Assembly: GCF_015709515.1 (NCBI RefSeq)
Contig: NZ_JADNQZ010000051.1
Span: 1 to 64,000, forward strand
DNA from: Methylocystis sp. H62
GTDB taxonomy: Bacteria > Pseudomonadota > Alphaproteobacteria > Rhizobiales > Beijerinckiaceae
Length of the DNA stretch: 64,000 nt
Direction of reading: 5' to 3'
In this document: piece after piece, positions 37,048 to 44,062 of the stretch
Position numbering within the stretch: position 1 is the first letter of the stretch
How the letters are laid out: each line of letters begins with the position of its first letter
Notes under the pieces: model-generated
Told to the model about the DNA's origin: nothing
Database searches by the model: none
What the model saw: the letters and a program-made list of their open reading frames with translations, nothing else
Translations under genes and position numbers: made by a program

Positions 37048-37281
37048 ATGGCCAAGACACAGAAGATGGCCAAGACAGACGTCAAGACATACGTCATGTC
37101 GGACGCAAAGACCTCTGACGACATCAGCGGCGCGACGGCTCCGCTCGCCTTCGCCGGAATCGGCTCCGCACTGGCCGCAGGTTTGGGCGTCGCCGCGGCA
37201 GGACTTTCCGTTGCATTCACGTGCGCCATCGCCGGGGCGATCGGCGGAGCGGTCCTCGGCGTGTGGCTCAACCGCCGCTGA
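37048..37281 (+). CDS. Small Gly/Ala-rich membrane protein
   Basis: A 77-residue protein with a polar N-terminal third and two Gly/Ala-rich membrane segments (ALAAGLGVAAAGLSVAF and AIAGAIGGAVLGVWL), ending in NRR. The glycine-zipper-like pattern suggests a small channel or stress-type membrane peptide. AGGA lies 8 bases before the ATG; 37066 is an alternative start. Confidence 0.6.
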   Translation: MAKTQKMAKTDVKTYVMSDAKTSDDISGATAPLAFAGIGSALAAGLGVAAAGLSVAFTCAIAGAIGGAVLGVWLNRR

Positions 37282-37406: not shown

Positions 37407-37541
37407 ATGTCGAAATTTACCAGCGCGTTTGTCGGAGCCATCATCGGATCGGTCATCTTCTTTGGAGTCGGCGCCGGTTTGGCTCATGCCCATACTGCGC
37501 CTCAGCAGACTGGATCCGTTGTCTATGTCGAGGCGCCTTAA
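37407..37541 (+). CDS. 44-residue secreted or membrane-anchored peptide
   Basis: A short frame with a strong site (AGGAGGAC, 5 bases before ATG): MSKFTSAFVGAIIGSVIFFG, then VGAGLAHAHTAPQQ and ending VVYVEAP. It is one hydrophobic segment with a short outer tail and could be a signal-cleaved peptide (cut near AHA). Its TAA overlaps the stop of the convergent DoxX gene. Confidence 0.6.
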   Translation: MSKFTSAFVGAIIGSVIFFGVGAGLAHAHTAPQQTGSVVYVEAP

Positions 37542-38041
37542 GCGCGCCTCGGCGACCACGCTCGAAACAGCAGATGGTCGAGGGAGATCGCGCCGGGCCC
37601 ACGGGCGATCAGCACGGTGAGGATCGCCACCCAATAGGCGTGGACGGTCCACCATGCATCGGGATAGACGAAGATCTGGATGACGATTGTCATCACCAAA
37701 AGAATGAACGCCGACAAGCGCGTCAAAAGCCCAAGGACAAGCAGCAGCGGCAGGACGAATTCGAGGCCGCTCGCCACATAGGCGGCGGCGGTCGGCGAAA
37801 TGAGCGGCAGTTTATATTCGTCGGCGAACAGCGCGAAGGTCGCGCTGCGCACGGCTGTCGGAATCTGGAACGATAGATCAAGGCCGAAAATTTCGCGGCC
37901 GAGAGTCGGTCCTTCAATCTTCGTCTGACCGGAGACGAAGAACGGATGCGCGGCGACGATGCGCAGGAAGAGGGCGATCAGAGAGTAGGGGATCGCATCC
38001 AACCAGCGCACGATCTTTCTTATGAAATTCATTGCGTTCAA
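37538..38041 (-). CDS. DoxX-family membrane protein of the bufferin locus
   Basis: A 167-residue protein with four membrane helices and DoxX features (RIVAAHPFFVSGQTKIEG, ASGLEFVLPLLLVLGLLTRLSAFIL, HAYWVAILTVLIARGPG). DoxX proteins commonly end bufferin operons (bufD position), with a possible redox role. It lies 47 bases after bufC on the same strand. Confidence 0.85.
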   Translation of the reverse strand: MNAMNFIRKIVRWLDAIPYSLIALFLRIVAAHPFFVSGQTKIEGPTLGREIFGLDLSFQIPTAVRSATFALFADEYKLPLISPTAAAYVASGLEFVLPLLLVLGLLTRLSAFILLVMTIVIQIFVYPDAWWTVHAYWVAILTVLIARGPGAISLDHLLFRAWSPRRA

Positions 38042-38088
38042 GCTCCATCAATGATCGCCGCGGCCACGCCAAAACGCGTTTTCTAAGT

Positions 38089-38862
38089 TCAGTGCGCGAC
38101 GCTGACGGCCACGAAGGCTCCAGTCAAGAAAAGCTCGCGCAAGCAATCGATCAGTTTGAATTCCGCCGCGACGCCGGTCGCCGCATTCATGGCTTCGCCG
38201 AAAGTTCTTCCGTTCCTGAGCGCGTCCACGAAAGCCGATCCGCCGGAAGGAAGCGGCGACACGCTGATCGCCAGCTCAGGACGAACGACGAGCGCCTCTT
38301 CGCCGTGGTCCAATACCACTGGCGTCATCTCGTCGTCCGACATGTGCCGCCGCCAGATCGAAACGATTGGATACGCGGACGCCACGACATGCGTTGAGGG
38401 ATGCAGAACAGCCGTTGCGTTGTCTAGTCGCTCGTGTGAGAGGGCGCGCAGGAAATCCAATGGCAGCGGCGCGGCGTCAGCGGCGTGATAGGCTTGGCCG
38501 ACGGCATATTCCAGCCGCGCGACGTCCGGAAGGTAAGGAAGTTCGCGCGCCGGTTCAAATTCCGAAACGAACGCCGGAAACGCGTCGCCATACTCGAAAC
38601 GCATCGGCGTGCGCGGAAGGCGTTCGCGCACATAGCATTGCGCCATGGCGCGGAAAAATTCATCGCCGACCAACTGCAGGCAAATTGGAAAGCGCTCCGC
38701 CAGCGCGTCGACCAGTCCGACGCACACATTGTTGCGATAGACCGCGAAGCGTCGCTTTGGCGCAAAGCCGTGGCTTGCTTCAACCTCGTTGGGCGGCGGC
38801 AGCTCTGGGTCGAGCAGCGCGCGGACAAATGCGCTCTGATCGAAATCAGCCGAGGTCGTCAT
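38089..38862 (-). CDS. bufC: Bufferin maturation partner BufC (DUF2063, DNA-binding-domain-like)
   Basis: A 257-residue protein starting with the DUF2063 pattern (FVRALLDPELPPPNEV ... RRFAVYRNNVCVGLVDALAERFPICLQLVGDEFFRAMAQCYV). Despite the historical name of the domain, proteins next to MNIO enzymes in bufferin clusters act as the recognition partner for the precursor peptide. Its start overlaps the end of bufB by 17 bases, so the two are coupled. Confidence 0.87.
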   Translation of the reverse strand: MTTSADFDQSAFVRALLDPELPPPNEVEASHGFAPKRRFAVYRNNVCVGLVDALAERFPICLQLVGDEFFRAMAQCYVRERLPRTPMRFEYGDAFPAFVSEFEPARELPYLPDVARLEYAVGQAYHAADAAPLPLDFLRALSHERLDNATAVLHPSTHVVASAYPIVSIWRRHMSDDEMTPVVLDHGEEALVVRPELAISVSPLPSGGSAFVDALRNGRTFGEAMNAATGVAAEFKLIDCLRELFLTGAFVAVSVAH

Positions 38863-39772
38863 GAAGCGCCTTCGATCTTAAGCCATCTTCAACAGCGCGC
38901 CGCCGCGTTTCAAGGAACGCCTCGGCTTGCGTCGCTTGCGCCAAGAGGGTCGGCCAGGGCGGGACGTCGTTGTCCCATTCGATCAGCGTCGCGACTGGTC
39001 CGCGTCGCGCCAGCGCGCGATGATATAGGCGCCAAACCGCATCAGGGACGGGCGCGCAATGCGCGTCGATCAGCAGAGGGTCGCCAATCTCGTCGAGATC
39101 CTCGGCATATCCGGCAAGATGAATCTCTTCGACGTAGGCCATCGGGAAGGCGTCGATATAGTCCTCCGCCGAATAGGCGAGGTTCGTTGCGCTGACATAG
39201 ACGTTGGTCACGTCGAGCAGCAGCCGGCAATCCGTGCGGCGCACGACCTCGTGCAGGAAGTCGATCTCCGAATGCTCCGAGGATCGGAACCGCAGATAGG
39301 CTGCTGGGTTTTCGAGGAGGATCGGCCTGCCGAGCGCCTCCTGGATTTCGTCTACATGAGCGACGACATGCGCCAACGTCGTCGCGTTATAGGGCAGGGG
39401 CAGCAAGTCGTTGAGAAAGCGCGCGCCTTGCGTCGACCAGGCGAGATGTTCGGAGAACGCGGCCGGTTCGTAGCGATCGACAAGACTCTTCACGCGCCGA
39501 AGATGCGCGCGGTCGAGGGGCTCAGCGCCGCCGACGGACAGGCCGACGCCATGGATCGAGAGCGGCGAATCTTTGCGCAAACGCATCAGCTGCGCGTGCG
39601 GAGTCCCGCCGGCGCCCATGTAATTCTCGGCGTGGATTTCGAAAAATCCGAGATCGTGCGCGGAGGCTTCGATGTCGGCGAGATGCACGCTCTTGAAACC
39701 GACTCCAGCGCGGGCGGGCAGCGAGGACGCTGCGCGCTCACGGCTATGTTCGGGGGCGGAATGCGCGCCCAT
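38846..39772 (-). CDS. bufB: MNIO-family (DUF692) bufferin-modifying enzyme BufB
   Basis: A 308-residue TIM-barrel multinuclear non-haem iron enzyme. Putative metal ligands are seen in IHGVGLSVGG, FSEHLAWS, LLENPAAYLRF, LLLDVTNVYVSA, EIHLAGYAED and LIDAHCAPVPD. MNIO enzymes convert cysteines of precursor peptides into heterocycles; in bufferins these bind copper. Pairing with DUF2063 and DUF2282 genes, rather than an mbnA/mbnC pair, argues that this is a bufferin enzyme and not methanobactin MbnB. It begins 9 bases after the bufA1 stop. Confidence 0.9.
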   Translation of the reverse strand: MGAHSAPEHSRERAASSLPARAGVGFKSVHLADIEASAHDLGFFEIHAENYMGAGGTPHAQLMRLRKDSPLSIHGVGLSVGGAEPLDRAHLRRVKSLVDRYEPAAFSEHLAWSTQGARFLNDLLPLPYNATTLAHVVAHVDEIQEALGRPILLENPAAYLRFRSSEHSEIDFLHEVVRRTDCRLLLDVTNVYVSATNLAYSAEDYIDAFPMAYVEEIHLAGYAEDLDEIGDPLLIDAHCAPVPDAVWRLYHRALARRGPVATLIEWDNDVPPWPTLLAQATQAEAFLETRRRAVEDGLRSKALHDDLG

Positions 39773-39781
39773 GCCGGGGCC

Positions 39782-40060
39782 TCAGTGCGAAATCGGCTCG
39801 AGGCTGCCTTTGCCCTTGGGCGTCACGATAGACGTGCACGTGCCCTTGGGAACATATTTCCACGCGTCGCCTTGATAATTGGTCTTTGACGTTCCCGCGC
39901 AACTGGTTCCCGGGCCTGCCGCACAATCATTCTTGCCCTTCAGGGAGACGCCGAAGCACTTTTCCTGGTCGTTCGCGGCCTGAGCCGTTTCCGCCAGAGC
40001 GACAGCCGTCGCGAAGGCGCCGGCGATCGCAAAGGCGGCGCAAAGCTTCTTGTCTGACAT
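39782..40060 (-). CDS. bufA1: BufA1-type bufferin precursor (DUF2282)
   Basis: A 92-residue precursor. A signal peptide (about residues 1-29, ending AQAA) is followed by the core with four cysteines C35, C46, C54 and C75: [16 protein letters not shown], then [23 protein letters not shown]. This is the DUF2282 bufferin pattern. The cysteines are the expected targets of BufB, giving a secreted copper-binding peptide. The ATG at 40060 has GGGAG upstream; the longer frame to 40168 lacks a site and would bury the signal. A SigF-type promoter lies 110 bases upstream. Confidence 0.9.
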
Positions 40061-40169
40061 CCTGATCTCCCTCTGCTTGCGTCCGATTCGTCCATAAAAG
40101 GCGATCGGTTGAAATCTGACGTATTCGGCGTGCAATTCAAGACGACCGTTCGCCGTCTCAAGGGTCAAT

Positions 40170-40195
40170 TTCGTCTCGACGGCGTCAAAGGTTAC
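40170..40195 (-). promoter_or_regulatory. SigF-type ECF promoter of bufA1BC-doxX
   Basis: On the minus strand, GTAACC (40195-40190), exactly 16 bases, then CGAA (40173-40170). This is the form reported for Caulobacter SigF targets. The same pair with the same spacing occurs upstream of bufA2, and the sigma gene is adjacent. Confidence 0.8.
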
Positions 40196-40291
40196 AGCCG
40201 AAGGAGTTCATCGAAAACTACGAAAAAGTCGAGTAGGGTGAGATGGCGCGCGGACGCTTGATTGATTAGAGCTGGCAGATTCGCAGCGGAC

Positions 40292-40867
40292 ATGAGCGAA
40301 TTGAGCGATACGTCGAACGATCGGGAAAGCCGCTGGCGCGCGCTGATGGCGTCGGCGCAGGACGGCGATCATGCCGCGTATGGCGAGCTCTTGTCCGATC
40401 TCTTTCCCGTTTTGCTCCGGTTCGTCGTGCGAAAATGGCCGAACGCGCACGACACGGAAGACGTGGTTCAGGAAATCCTGGTGTCCATTCACACCGTGCG
40501 CCAGACCTACGATCGCCGGCGTCCGTTTACGCCCTGGCTGATGACCATCGCGGCGCGGCGCGTCGCCGACGCCGCGCGAAGTCGTTACGCACGCGGCGCC
40601 AACGAAACGACCGTCGATGTTTTGCCTGAAACCTTTGACGGCGACGGCGCGAAATCCGAACAAGAGACGAGGGACGATCGCGAGGCGCTTCGCAGAGCCA
40701 TGGCGATCCTGCCGGCTAGCCAGCGCCAGGCGATTGAACTGATCAAGATCCAGGGTCTTTCGTTGGATGAAGCGTCTCAGGTCACGGGGAAGAGCGTTGG
40801 CGCGCTGAAAGTCGGAATCCATAGAGCCATCAAAGCGATGCGGCAGGCCCTGGAGCGGATTGGCTAG
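40292..40867 (+). CDS. sigF: ECF sigma factor, SigF (ECF16-like) type
   Basis: A 191-residue sigma-70-family protein. Region 2: AAYGELLSDLFPVLLRFVVRKW ... DTEDVVQEILVSIHTVRQTYDRRRPFTPWLMTIAARRVADAAR; region 4: AMAILPASQRQAIELIKIQGLSLDEASQVTGKSVGALKVGIHRAIKAMRQAL. It is divergent from bufA1 and is followed four bases later by nrsF. It should direct transcription from the GTAACC-N16-CGAA boxes in front of both bufferin genes. No such box was seen in front of sigF itself. TTG at 40262 is a possible longer start. Confidence 0.9.
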   Translation: MSELSDTSNDRESRWRALMASAQDGDHAAYGELLSDLFPVLLRFVVRKWPNAHDTEDVVQEILVSIHTVRQTYDRRRPFTPWLMTIAARRVADAARSRYARGANETTVDVLPETFDGDGAKSEQETRDDREALRRAMAILPASQRQAIELIKIQGLSLDEASQVTGKSVGALKVGIHRAIKAMRQALERIG

Positions 40868-40870
40868 CGA

Positions 40871-41554
40871 ATGTTGAACCAAGACCTGATCGAAACCCTG
40901 ACCGACAATTGCGCGCCGATACGCCCGCTCCCGCATCCTGCGTGGCGCGCGCTCGTTTGGTTCGCGGTTTCGCTTTGTTATGTCGCGATCGTGGTGGCGG
41001 TCATGGGGGTGAGGCCCGACTTTGTCGCCAAGATCGCCGACCCGCAGTTCGCGACGGAATTGGCTGCGGCGTTCCTGACGAGCGTCGTCGCCGCAGCGGG
41101 CGCCTTCAGCGCCGGCTGTCCGGCGCGCCCGATCTGGGAGCGGCTCGCCGCCGGATTGTTCTTCTTGCTCTGGGCAGGCGCGCTCGTCGTTGGATGCTGG
41201 AGGGACGTTGACGCCTTCGGCGTGTCCGGTCTCCTCTCGCATTCGGACATTTATTGCCTGCCCGCCATTCTCGCCATCAGCATCCCGGCGGCGGTGTTGA
41301 TCCTGTCGATGGTCAAGCGCGGCGCGCCCATCGCGCCATTCGTGACGATTGGACTTGCGGCGCTCGCATCGACGGCCTTGGCGGCGGCGGCGCTACGTCT
41401 TTCCTTCAGACAGGACGCGGCAGTGTCGGTCTGCATCTGGCAGTTCGGTTCCGTCGTCCTGCTGACGGGAATCGCCTCGCTGTTCGGCCGGGCGCTCCTG
41501 CATTGGACCAGGCGCGACGAGCTGATGGCCTCTTTTCAAGCGGATCGTCGCTAA
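40871..41554 (+). CDS. nrsF: NrsF-type membrane anti-sigma factor (DUF1109)
   Basis: A 227-residue protein with six predicted helices and a short cytoplasmic N-terminus, starting four bases after the sigma gene stop. It matches the DUF1109 anti-sigma family. Six cysteines occur (C14, C36, C83, C109, C129, C188); in Caulobacter, periplasm-facing cysteines of NrsF sense metal or oxidant and release SigF. Which of these face the periplasm is not certain. Confidence 0.87.
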   Translation: MLNQDLIETLTDNCAPIRPLPHPAWRALVWFAVSLCYVAIVVAVMGVRPDFVAKIADPQFATELAAAFLTSVVAAAGAFSAGCPARPIWERLAAGLFFLLWAGALVVGCWRDVDAFGVSGLLSHSDIYCLPAILAISIPAAVLILSMVKRGAPIAPFVTIGLAALASTALAAAALRLSFRQDAAVSVCIWQFGSVVLLTGIASLFGRALLHWTRRDELMASFQADRR

Positions 41555-41569
41555 TCTGACGCTCCGGAA

Positions 41570-41619
41570 ATTTAAAAACGGCGCGGAACGGACGAAGAAA
41601 GCGTATCCGTCCGCGCCGC
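41570..41619 (-). terminator. Terminator of bufA2
   Basis: Read on the minus strand, a long stem built from CGGCGCGGACG (41618-41608) and CGTCCG...CGCGCCG (to about 41579), with one unpaired pair, is followed by TTTTTAAATTT. It lies a few bases after the bufA2 stop and could also end the nrsF transcript. Confidence 0.75.
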
Positions 41620-41624
41620 TTGGC

Positions 41625-41891
41625 TTACATCTCGGCGACCTTGCCGCCCTTCGCCTCGCAAGCCGCTGCTGATTTTTCGGGCACCCACCCCTGACCCTTG
41701 CATGAGTTCATGCCCTTGCAGGCGTTGTTCGCGGTCTTGCAGGCGCTGGTTCCCTTGCACGAATTGATTCCGGCGCAATGGACCGACTTGCTCATTTTTT
41801 TGGCGAGCGCCGGCGCAGGCGCCGCGCCGCTTAGAACCAGGGCGATCGCCGCGGCGGCCATTGAGGCGCCCGAAACGGTTTTGACGTTCAT
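41625..41891 (-). CDS. bufA2: BufA2-type periplasmic bufferin precursor
   Basis: An 88-residue precursor with a signal peptide ending ...APALA and six cysteines: C39, C45, C51, C58, C64 and C78, in repeats of the form HCAGINSC, KGTSAC, NNAC, KGMNSCKGQGW. This is the BufA2 pattern. AGGAG lies 6 bases before the ATG at 41891; the longer frame to 42182 crosses the promoter. It is 1.9 kb from bufB with nrsF in between and on the opposite strand, but shares the SigF-type promoter. Confidence 0.87.
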   Translation of the reverse strand: MNVKTVSGASMAAAAIALVLSGAAPAPALAKKMSKSVHCAGINSCKGTSACKTANNACKGMNSCKGQGWVPEKSAAACEAKGGKVAEM

Positions 41892-41958
41892 TTCCATCTC
41901 CTTGAAATTCAGCTCGCAGGACGAGCGTTCCAGGTTCACGGGGAACCTGCGGACGCTA

Positions 41959-41984
41959 TTCGTCACCGCTGCGAATAAGGTTAC
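41959..41984 (-). promoter_or_regulatory. SigF-type ECF promoter of bufA2
   Basis: On the minus strand, GTAACC (41984-41979), exactly 16 bases, then CGAA (41962-41959). It lies 68 bases before the bufA2 ATG. Motif and spacing are identical to the box before bufA1. Confidence 0.8.
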
Positions 41985-42250: not shown

Positions 42251-44062
42251 GTGTATCCACCGCTCCGCGGCTTTTTGCGCCGCTGCCATGAACAGTTCGC
42301 CGCCGACGATTCCGGCGCGGTCGCCAATTACATTCCGGAATTGACGAGGGCGAACCCAGCGCATTTCGGCGTCAGCCTCGCGACGATCGACGGACATGTC
42401 TATGAGGTCGGCGACAGTTCCACGCCTTTTACGATTCAGTCGATATCGAAGGCCTTTGTCTTCGCGCTCGCCCTCGAAACGCTTGGCCACGAGCGCGTCG
42501 AGTCGGTGATCGGCGTCGAGCCTAGCGGCGAGGCTTTCAATTCGATTCGACTGACGGGCGACAACAAGCCGTTCAATCCCATGGTCAACGCTGGAGCGAT
42601 CGCCTGTTCCGGGCTGATCCATCAGCATGAAGGCGATGGCGCTTTTGACCTCATCCATCGGACGCTCGGCCGCTTCGCCGGACGCGAACTCGACGTCGAC
42701 GAAGCGGTGTTCGCCTCGGAACGCGCGACCGGCGACAGGAATCGCGCTATCGCCTGGCTGCTTCGTAATTATTCGGTGCTCGGCGACGACGTCGACGCCG
42801 TTCTGGACGTCTATTTTCGTCAATGCGCCGTGCTCGTCACCGCGCGCGATCTGGCGGTCATGGCGGCGACGCTAGCCAACAGCGGCCGCAACCCGCTCAC
42901 CGGCGAGCAGATCATTTCCCCTTACGTCGTGGCGCGCACGCTATCGGTGATGACGAGCTCCGGCATGTACGACTATGCCGGCGAGTGGATCTATCGGGTG
43001 GGAATTCCCGCGAAGAGCGGGGTCGGCGGCGGAATCATCGCCGCCCTTCCGGCGCAACTGGGGCTCGGCACGTTTTCGCCCCGGCTCGACAGTCATGGCA
43101 ACAGCGTCCGCGGTCTAAAGGTCTGCGAGGCGCTGTCGGCGCATTTCGGATTGCATGTGCTCAATCGCAGCGACGATGTGCGCACCTGCATCATCAGCGA
43201 TTACAACGCAGCCGGCGTTTCCTCGCGCCGCAACCGACAGAATTTCGAGCTGGCGATTCTTCAAGAGCGCGCAAGCGACATTCGGGTGATCGAACTCGTC
43301 GGCGCGCTCTCATTCGCCGCAATGGACTACGTCTCGCGCAGGCTGGATGGCGAAGGGCCGCCGGGCGAGCTGCTGATTTTGGACTTTCGACGCGTTCCGA
43401 GCGCGACGACCGCCGCTGCGCGACTTCTGGCGGAGACGCTCGCTGGCCTCGCTACTCGCGGCGTCACCCTTATCGTCGCCGGCTTTGAAAAGGCGTCGCA
43501 GCTCTGGCAGGCGATCCACGCAGAGCGCGACGTTTTGCCAAAACTGCGTCATTTTTCGCTGCTCGACGACGCAATCGAATGGGCCGAAGATCAAGTGATC
43601 TATCGCTATGGCGGCTTCGAAGGCCTGGCCAAGACGACCCATCTCAGTGAGCAGGCGCTGCTCGCTGGGCTGTGTTCGGATGAAATAGACCACATCGCGG
43701 CGATCGGGTTTGCGCGTAATTTCAAAACCGGCGAGCGGATCATCGCCGCCGGAGATCCGGCAGCCTCGCTGTTCTTTCTGCAAAGCGGCATGGTCAGCGT
43801 GAAATTGCGCAGCGGCGCGCGTTTGGCGTCGATTTCGCCGGGCATGGCATTCGGCGAGATGGCGCTCATCGAACGCGAGCGCAGCGCAGACGTATGGGCC
43901 GACACGGCGGTGCAGTGCCTCGAATTGCCGCTCGGCGCCTATGCGTCGTTTCGCAAGAGCCATTCAGCAAGCGGAGAACTGATCATGCGAAATCTTGCAG
44001 CTTTATTGGCAAGGCGCCTAGTGCTTGCAAACGCCAAAGTCGACCTGCTCAGCGCCTATTGA
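42251..44062 (+). CDS. glsA: Glutaminase A fused to STAS and cyclic-nucleotide-binding domains
   Basis: A 603-residue protein starting at GTG. Residues ~1-305 are a serine-type glutaminase with the Ser-x-x-Lys pair in TIQSISKAF, PFNPMVNAGAI and SGVGGGIIAALP. Residues ~330-440 form a STAS domain (IRVIELVGALSFAAMDYV ... LLILDFRRVPSA). Residues ~470-590 form a cNMP-binding fold (FARNFKTGERIIAAGDPAASLFFLQSGMVSVKL ... GMAFGEMALIERERSADVWAD). It turns glutamine into glutamate and ammonia. The two added domains, seen in a subset of bacterial glutaminases, suggest ligand control. Confidence 0.9.
   Translation: MYPPLRGFLRRCHEQFAADDSGAVANYIPELTRANPAHFGVSLATIDGHVYEVGDSSTPFTIQSISKAFVFALALETLGHERVESVIGVEPSGEAFNSIRLTGDNKPFNPMVNAGAIACSGLIHQHEGDGAFDLIHRTLGRFAGRELDVDEAVFASERATGDRNRAIAWLLRNYSVLGDDVDAVLDVYFRQCAVLVTARDLAVMAATLANSGRNPLTGEQIISPYVVARTLSVMTSSGMYDYAGEWIYRVGIPAKSGVGGGIIAALPAQLGLGTFSPRLDSHGNSVRGLKVCEALSAHFGLHVLNRSDDVRTCIISDYNAAGVSSRRNRQNFELAILQERASDIRVIELVGALSFAAMDYVSRRLDGEGPPGELLILDFRRVPSATTAAARLLAETLAGLATRGVTLIVAGFEKASQLWQAIHAERDVLPKLRHFSLLDDAIEWAEDQVIYRYGGFEGLAKTTHLSEQALLAGLCSDEIDHIAAIGFARNFKTGERIIAAGDPAASLFFLQSGMVSVKLRSGARLASISPGMAFGEMALIERERSADVWADTAVQCLELPLGAYASFRKSHSASGELIMRNLAALLARRLVLANAKVDLLSAY

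Follow-up and report, generated by a model that had tools for sequence, protein, structure and literature searches.

The locus described here lies within a 64-kb window, the whole stretch of Methylocystis sp. H62 DNA that was analysed, and consists of a four-gene unit on the minus strand, a divergent pair of regulatory genes and a further single gene. The minus-strand unit begins with bufA1 (39782–40060), which encodes a DUF2282 bufferin precursor (PF10048, 88 bits, cut-off 22.4) whose four cysteines and Sec-like N-terminus were recognised by eye from the sequence. It continues with bufB (38846–39772) for an MNIO bufferin maturase (PF05114/DUF692, 337 bits) of the BufB1 type (NF050167, 368 bits, cut-off 310), then bufC (38089–38862) for the DUF2063 partner of the MNIO (PME type 1; PF09836, 86 bits) and, as the terminal gene, one for an HvfX-like membrane protein of the DoxX family (37538–38032; PF07681, 54.5 bits). 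Divergent from this unit, on the plus strand, are sigF (40262–40867), encoding an ECF sigma factor (PF08281, PF04542; TIGR02937, 68.7 bits, cut-off 42.9), and nrsF (40871–41554), encoding a membrane anti-sigma factor (DUF1109/NrsF; PF06532, 83 bits). The sigF coordinate 40262 is the first possible start, and an alternative ATG at 40292 is kept in nine of the 12 readable relatives, the window included. Beyond the pair, and convergent with nrsF, lies the single gene bufA2 (41625–41897, minus strand), the product of which is a bufferin precursor of the six-Cys, Cys-Lys type with four Cys-Lys motifs (NF050166, 100 bits, cut-off 60). NCBIfam cut-offs are passed by BufB, BufA2 and the sigma factor, and Pfam cut-offs only by BufA1, BufC, DoxX and NrsF.

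These profile matches bear out what a sequence-only reading had proposed, namely a bufA1-bufB-bufC-DoxX unit on the minus strand with those genes in that order, an ECF sigma/DUF1109 pair divergent from it and a second six-Cys precursor beyond the pair; its description of the locus as a complete bufferin system holds, by profile and gene order, for one of Buf1 type. The metal-ligand motifs of BufB align with those of the solved MNIO 3BWW and of the MbnB encoded in the same genome, and match those of MbnB 7DZ9 within the aligned part. A search for solved relatives of BufC at an E-value of 0.001 found none.

The window layout was found by coordinates in 16 of 39 genomes of the genus (bufA1 lies on a separate contig in G029), and 13 of these 16 loci, the window among them, were read. 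DoxX is similarly placed in 12 of the 13, the exception ending at a contig end (L069). Given this recurrence across the genus, the layout is beyond chance. Median pairwise dN/dS is 0.074 for bufA1 and 0.155 for bufA2 (78 pairs from 13 orthologues in each case), and all six cysteines of BufA2 are retained across the 13 window-type copies. A single frame spanning DUF2282 and MNIO in G013 (L083) was rejected as a true fusion because, compared with L084, the reading frame seems to shift where the precursor ends.

Two exact copies of the sigmaF promoter GTAACC-N16-CGAA, a consensus taken from the available part of a Caulobacter study (PMC3511200), were found by motif search on the minus strand, one for bufA1 at 40170–40195 and one for bufA2 at 41959–41984. 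They are absent from the sequence-only reading, and 0.16 such sites would be expected in the window. All 13 window-type loci read (160 kb) have exactly two exact sites, one ahead of each precursor gene. With the 16-base spacer, the genome (4.54 Mb) has an exact match at three places, the third of which (C41:65422, L019) was rejected as a regulon member and taken as chance, since it lies inside a 385-aa coding frame, presumably that of a Fic protein judging from a motif. With spacers of 16 or 17 bases there are seven matches in the genome (four of them with the 17-base spacer) against 27 for a reversed-pattern control, so the motif has no genome-wide enrichment, and the weight of the promoter evidence lies in the position of the two window sites and their conservation. 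When up to two mismatches are allowed, the window has 48 sites against 41.8 expected, which is the level of chance, and for that reason no wider sigmaF regulon is claimed. Upstream of sigF, on the plus strand, no 16-spacer site was found within two mismatches, and between 37300 and 42300 sigma-70-type promoters and terminators are at or below chance.

No MNIO maturase adjoins bufA2 in any of the 13 window-type loci read. At the level of the order, a BufB2 MNIO adjoins BufA2 in 18 of the 19 loci read, the 19th being cut by a contig end, and none of the 19 has an exact sigmaF site upstream of BufA2, with one-mismatch sites in L119 only. The sole BufB2 of the window genome is on another contig, together with BufC2 and a His-rich precursor of its own (L012, G000:C58:373353-375357); this precursor has the Cys spacing of BufA2 (5-5-6-5) but lacks Cys-Lys, and has no NCBIfam model. 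The second lone BufA2 of the genome is also on contig C58. BufA2 and BufB2-type MNIOs, taken as those 64% or more identical to the L012 enzyme, co-occur in the identical 32 of 39 genus genomes, a soft figure in that five of the seven genomes without both are 64–81% complete.

Further lone BufA2 genes occur in L094, L096 and L104, and a second copy in L119; the contig of L094 does not break off on the side expected to carry a maturase. Genome G012, whose completeness is rated at 100%, carries a lone BufA2 (L078), and its only MNIO match is of L012 type and about 1.5 Mb away, so this BufA2 would be modified in trans or not at all. The L078 protein falls in another branch than window-type BufA2. 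In the BufA2 tree the window-type copies form one group (91/76) within a clade (99/98) to which copies adjoining BufB2 also belong.

One way to account for the solitary bufA2 is that its maturase was lost and that BufA2 is exported unmodified as a plain thiol-rich metal scavenger. The missing neighbour in all 13 loci read would fit, as would the suggestion that some precursors may go unmodified (PMC12452194), but all 13 copies keep their six cysteines and all 16 window-type genomes hold an L012-type MNIO (at least 93%), and we regard this explanation as improbable.

Another is that the BufB–BufC pair of the window modifies BufA1 and BufA2 alike in cis, with the L012 pair serving only its own His-rich precursor and perhaps the other lone BufA2. 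bufA2 and bufB share the sigmaF switch, and in G015 (L074) the order bufA2-bufA1-bufB1-bufC-doxX in tandem means that BufB1 might process both precursors there. Tandem precursor genes have also been reported, and multi-substrate MNIOs suggested (PMC12452194). Enzyme and precursor types pair, but not strictly: G001 (L080) has bufA1-bufC-doxX with no intervening bufB, its only MNIOs being of BufB2 and MbnB-like type; in L097, bufA1 and doxX are accompanied by an adjoining BufB2, and no BufB1 was found. From these two cases it seems that a bufferin MNIO may act across families.

Against this stand the neighbours of BufA2 in most other loci read, where it adjoins BufB2, and two features of the proteins themselves. 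The first is the specificity site, which reads EWDN in the window BufB, with Asn after the catalytic Asp. The residue at this position is Asn in 21 of 23 DUF2282-linked BufB sequences and Gly in the other two; in BufB2 it is Asp in 13 of 14 readable sequences and Glu in one. Asp at this site has been linked to Cys-Lys substrates, and a Phe-to-Asp change there still yielded modified product, according to the available part of PMC12668002. The MbnB of the genome also has Asp in this place (ERDD), which is hence not exclusive to BufB2. The second feature is the signal peptide, which in preliminary Buf1 data forms part of the BufBC recognition sequence (PMC12452194). The signal peptides of BufA2 and the L012 precursor align with a score of 83, reached by none of 148 control N-termini, and those of BufA2 and BufA1 with a score of 25, which 72 of the 148 controls equal or exceed and which is thus no better than for unrelated N-termini. 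The controls are signal-like and were chosen by a simple pattern (252 candidates, from which 104 bufferins were removed). As the L012 precursor is apparently a homologue of BufA2, the common signal peptide may reflect ancestry only. On balance modification in cis seems rather unlikely to us. The test proposed with the sequence-only reading had assumed BufB to modify both precursors; the evidence leans instead, not decisively, to BufB2 for BufA2.

The genes, the promoter motifs and their conservation, the co-occurrence of BufA2 with BufB2 and the lack of a maturase adjoining BufA2 are read directly from the DNA. Building on them, we think it probable that the locus is a sigmaF-controlled metal-stress regulon in which BufA2 is induced by sigmaF and modified in trans by BufB2–BufC2; here we infer the nature of the signal, the peptide chemistry, maturation in trans and the copper role. 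NrsF would keep the ECF sigma factor held at the membrane until metal stress, probably from copper and possibly from other thiophilic metals, released it. SigmaF would then act at two promoters, giving a bufA1-bufB-bufC-doxX transcript and one of bufA2 alone. BufBC would turn the central cysteines of BufA1 into heterocycles that bind copper, after which the peptide would reach the periplasm by Sec export, and BufA2 would most likely be modified by BufB2–BufC2 from L012 and not by BufB. No sigmaF site was found ahead of the L012 operon in L012, L087 or L089 (up to two mismatches, spacers of 15–17), and so under stress the amount of substrate would go up, with the maturase supplied under separate control. 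The two peptides would act as copper buffers in the periplasm, and the same cell would produce methanobactin to take copper up.

A more ambitious version, to which we give slightly less than an even chance, is a split RiPP system. Sigma-driven BufA2 would have no maturase of its own, and an MNIO pair elsewhere, outside the sigma regulon, would serve at least three scattered precursors (the window BufA2, the lone BufA2 on C58 and the His-rich relative) through a common signal-peptide recognition leader, with methanobactin importing copper in the same cells.

Methanotrophs are textbook copper-hungry bacteria, and methanobactin is an uptake peptide. The host was called a methanotroph in the sequence-only reading, and the name holds, since its genome carries pmoA (PF02461, 361 bits) as well as mbnA, mbnB and mbnC over curated cut-offs (L014; 446 bits for MbnB with TIGR04159); with the bufferin locus in the same genome, copper-scavenging and presumed copper-buffering peptides coexist. 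In Caulobacter, the available part of PMC8224329 describes the sigF/nrsF operon as copper-induced, the sigmaF regulon as copper-induced under all conditions tested, and a sigF mutant as copper-sensitive. Copper stress is, by analogy, a plausible trigger of the window locus, and the copper role of its bufferins would likewise follow from Caulobacter. The regulon might alternatively answer mainly to chromate, cadmium, gold or oxidants, without being specially linked to copper or pMMO: chromium and cadmium induce the Caulobacter sigmaF genes (PMC3511200, available part), and related gig operons are gold-responsive. The copper induction and copper sensitivity just described speak against this, as does the chromium and cadmium sensitivity of the sigF mutant, given as similar to the parent in the same portion of PMC8224329, and we consider it unlikely.

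If the favoured reading of a sigmaF–bufferin regulon is true, it would be the other half of methanotroph copper balance beside methanobactin, and would make the question of periplasmic copper supply versus poisoning testable. The maturase-less BufA2 would offer a natural test of the signal peptide as recognition leader for bufferin enzymes, a question raised in PMC12452194.

Among known MNIO systems, the oxazolin HvfABCX system shares with the window an MNIO, a DUF2063 partner, a DoxX-like protein and a precursor with a Sec-type signal peptide. It differs in having Phe after the catalytic Asp where the window BufB has Asn, and its EGKCG (Lys-Cys) repeats were not found in the BufA1 or BufA2 sequences. 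The HvfB, HvfC and HvfX models all score under cut-off (PRK05409 for BufB, 227 bits against 360; NF050145 for BufC, 43 against 142; NF050144 for DoxX, 47 against 80). Methanobactin (MbnABC), encoded in the window genome, is likewise an MNIO-modified copper-binding peptide, but its precursor has no signal peptide, it serves copper uptake instead of buffering, and its enzyme belongs to another MNIO subfamily; the window BufB scores 47 bits with the MbnB model TIGR04159, below the cut-off of 325.

The likeness to bufferin clusters is closer. With Buf1 clusters the window shares a DUF2282 precursor with four Cys and an MNIO/DUF2063 pair in one unit; the copper-binding, Cys-derived thiooxazoles of that class would be expected here by likeness of the genes. 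With Buf2 (BufA2-BufB2-BufC2) clusters the window BufA2 shares the NF050166 match, six Cys and four Cys-Lys. Such clusters usually, not universally, have their own MNIO and partner adjacent, whereas the window BufA2 does not and adjoins sigma/anti-sigma genes, neighbours described in PMC12452194 for Buf1 clusters and not for Buf2 ones.

The nearest counterpart is the Caulobacter sigmaF regulon (sigF-nrsF and CC3254-3257, Buf1), which, as set out in the available part of PMC3511200, agrees with the window locus in gene content and gene order (DUF2282, DUF692, DUF2063, DoxX) and in the promoter GTAACC-N16-CGAA. Caulobacter has a sigmaF site ahead of sigF and the window none that was found; this site is a Caulobacter trait and need not be a defining one for the family. 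Its regulon also includes CC2907-2905 and CC2748, while the other exact 16-spacer site of the window genome is intragenic. Caulobacter NrsF has two conserved cysteines, C131 and C181; in our alignment of 28 NrsF sequences (Caulobacter not included) 27 have Cys in the Cys129 column and the other is a fragment gapped there, and a second near-invariant Cys column is absent. The window adds a Buf2 precursor gene, convergent with nrsF and with its own sigmaF site, and a search of the Caulobacter genome with NF050166 gave no BufA2 match. Judged by its genes, the window locus is the known Caulobacter sigmaF–bufferin layout with BufA2 added, and its unusual point is that the gene for the enzyme that usually modifies BufA2 is not beside it and seems to lie elsewhere in the genome.

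The bufferin genes are on contig C51, part of a genome of 4.54 Mb, and profile searches bore out every gene named in the sequence-only reading. The minus-strand unit comprises bufA1 (39782-40060; DUF2282, 88 bits against a cut-off of 22.4), bufB (38846-39772; 368 bits with the 'bufferin maturase' model, cut-off 310), bufC (38089-38862) and the DoxX gene (37538-38032). On the plus strand are the ECF sigma gene sigF (40262-40867), also identified by profile search, and nrsF (40871-41554), with which bufA2 (41625-41897, minus strand; 100 bits with the BufA2 model, cut-off 60) is convergent. The products of bufA1, bufC, nrsF and the DoxX gene pass Pfam cut-offs only. Over the aligned parts, BufB has the same metal-ligand motifs (listed in PMC8888699) as MNIOs of solved structure, and at these motifs it lines up with the genome's own MbnB. 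The predicted set of BufB, BufA1, BufC and DoxX with sigF-nrsF is a plain member of the known Buf1 cluster kind, and heterocycles would presumably form on the bufferin precursors. Just past doxX are two small plus-strand frames (37048-37281 and 37408-37542; 77 and 44 aa) with no Pfam or NCBIfam match, and beside the bufA2 promoter a plus-strand gene (42251-44062) encodes a 603 aa fusion of glutaminase, STAS and cyclic-nucleotide-binding domains.

The sigmaF promoter of Caulobacter is reported as GTAACC-N16-CGAA (PMC3511200), and exact copies, both on the minus strand, precede bufA1 (40170-40195) and bufA2 (41959-41984), giving two in the window where 0.16 are expected. Across the whole genome, spacers of 16 or 17 bases give 7 matches against 27 for a reversed-pattern control, and the 16-base spacer gives three, namely the two window sites and one within a coding frame. 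The window-type layout, in which a bufA1 unit, sigF-nrsF and a lone bufA2 occur together, was found by coordinates in 16 of the 39 genus genomes, including G029, where bufA1 is on another contig. In the 13 of these loci that were read (window counted; G027, G029 and G030 left out), which together span 160 kb, 26 exact sites occur, each locus having one before bufA1 and one before bufA2; both promoter motifs are conserved. Upstream of sigF there is no 16-spacer site within two mismatches. The Caulobacter sigF operon of the same kind is reported to be induced by chromium and cadmium (PMC3511200) and by copper, a sigF mutant being copper-sensitive (PMC8224329), and by analogy metals may release sigmaF here and the locus may confer copper tolerance.

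The description of the host as a methanotroph is upheld by pmoA (PF02461, C59:2801-3505, 361 bits), and mbnA, mbnB and mbnC each exceed their cut-offs at one locus (L014), so the genome of a methanotroph equipped for methanobactin has bufferin genes as well. MbnB is over its cut-off in 21 of the 39 genus genomes and in all window-type genomes except G032 and G033 (14/16); PF02461 occurs in 31/39 and likewise in 14/16 (all except G021 and G027). By gene content the bufferin locus coexists with methanobactin and pMMO genes, and its products may buffer copper around pMMO.

Four MNIOs are encoded in the genome: window BufB, MbnB and the enzymes of loci L012 and L013. The L012 enzyme, of BufB2 type, is accompanied by a DUF2063-like partner and preceded by a small His-rich, six-Cys precursor of 76 aa (L012:7354-7584, plus strand) that matches no NCBIfam model. 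Three precursor genes of this type stand in tandem in G008 (L089), and in G017 (L076) a related gene adjoins a BufA2. At L013 (6194-8509, plus strand) the MNIO is preceded by a TIGR04222 membrane protein and followed by a small protein whose RiPP-type (Os1348/NHLP) match stays below threshold. The genome has one DUF2282 gene and two BufA2 genes, the second lying alone on contig C58 (L018:6440-6697, minus strand; C58:10451-10675), with neither maturase nor sigmaF site found in its vicinity; several genomes of the genus likewise have related copies that stand alone (L077-L079, L086, L088, L090).

We lean towards maturation of window BufA2 in trans by the L012 enzyme, to which co-occurrence, the presence of L012-type enzymes, genome G012, the Asp site, signal peptides and Cys spacing all seem to point. 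BufA2 and BufB2-type MNIOs are found in the identical 32 of 39 genus genomes, a co-occurrence that is soft because five of the seven genomes lacking both are only 64-81% complete, and an L012-type enzyme at at least 93% identity is present in all 16 window-type genomes. In G012, whose completeness is rated at 100%, a BufA2 stands alone (L078; in the tree it groups with the L018 branch and not the window branch), and the single MNIO hit, of L012 type, is some 1.5 Mb distant. Asp follows the catalytic Asp in 13 of 14 readable BufB2 sequences, L051 having Glu and L056 being truncated; the DUF2282-linked BufB sequences have Asn there in 21 of 23 cases, the exceptions being Gly in L083 and L084. 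Asp here has been linked to Cys-Lys substrates (PMC12668002), and BufA2 has four Cys-Lys; the same Asp is also found in the genome's MbnB, and an Asp change at the specificity site is reported as tolerated (PMC12668002), both of which count against the trans reading. The BufA2 and L012-precursor signal peptides align with a score of 83, which none of 148 controls reaches, and those of BufA2 and BufA1 with a score of 25, equalled or exceeded by 72 of 148. Preliminary evidence from the Buf1 system places the signal peptide in the recognition sequence (PMC12452194), and the likeness may be plain homology. The L012 precursor, itself without Cys-Lys, shares the Cys spacing 5-5-6-5 with BufA2.

Processing of BufA2 by the window's own BufB instead would fit L074 of G015, where bufA2 is in tandem with bufA1-bufB1. 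Pairing is not strict: the bufA1-bufC-doxX unit of G001 (L080:6973-8703, plus strand) lacks bufB, and as BufB2 and MbnB account for the genome's MNIO hits, one each, its BufA1 would either stay unmodified or depend on an enzyme of a different type. In L097 bufA1 and doxX occur with BufB2 and no BufB1 was found; bufferin enzymes may therefore cross families. In G013 the DUF2282 precursor and MNIO share one open frame (L083:4852-6876, minus strand); comparison with the relative L084 suggests a frame change at the precursor end, whether real or a sequencing error.

Outside window-type loci, BufA2 is in most cases accompanied by an MNIO of its own. Order-level loci were fetched from 19 of the 45 genomes over the BufA2 cut-off (G196, G284 and G231 because the genome also has NrsF, the others from various score-list positions), and an L012-like MNIO adjoins BufA2 in 18 of them, the 19th (L113) ending at a contig end; L119 has an additional BufA2 without an MNIO within 1.5 kb. 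No exact sigmaF site precedes BufA2 in these 19 loci, one-mismatch sites occurring in L119. Among 12 named loci an MNIO neighbours BufA2 in eight (L095, L097-L103), while L093 ends just past BufA2 and L094, L096 and L104 have none on the sides seen. Within the genus, bufA2, its BufB2 and the partner lie together in L050, L051, L054, L055, L059, L067, L072 and L073, with a sigmaF site before bufA2 that is exact in L050 and otherwise one-mismatch. In the BufA2 tree, a short alignment with many forks open, window-type copies form one group (91/76) within a clade (99/98) that includes BufB2-adjoining genus copies. The simplest history would be an ancestral sigmaF locus with both bufferin units, from which the window lineage then lost its local BufB2 pair. 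Local BufB2 looks broken in two genomes: in G015 it is split into two fragments, and in G008 the match covers just residues 5-200 out of 288; the L012-type enzyme is whole in both. The sequence itself shows that the window type lacks a local BufB2 and has an L012-type enzyme.

No paper on bufferins in Methylocystis was found among the literature matches listed, which covered the open literature with subscription papers outside the search, and term searches of the available text of the OB3b copper transcriptome paper (PMC12811070) gave no DUF692, DUF2282, DoxX or sigma factor, the sole match for 'bufferin' being 'buffering'. Control of two bufferins by sigmaF is not new in itself, since Caulobacter is reported to have a second, unlinked DUF2282-DUF692-DUF2063 operon (CC2907-2905) under sigmaF (PMC3511200). 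In L049, L052 and L056 the neighbours of BufA2 are an NrsF match and a sigF-like gene that has diverged; sites with one mismatch are present there and DUF2282 is absent from the stretch, and the genomes of G004 and G008 as a whole give no DUF2282 match. In L097, from Novosphingobium, sigF, an nrsF-like gene, bufA1 and bufA2-bufB2 lie together with two exact sigmaF sites. The available text of PMC12452194 places sigma and NrsF genes in Buf1 and not Buf2 clusters, whereas here a Buf2 precursor adjoins sigF-nrsF under a promoter of the same type.
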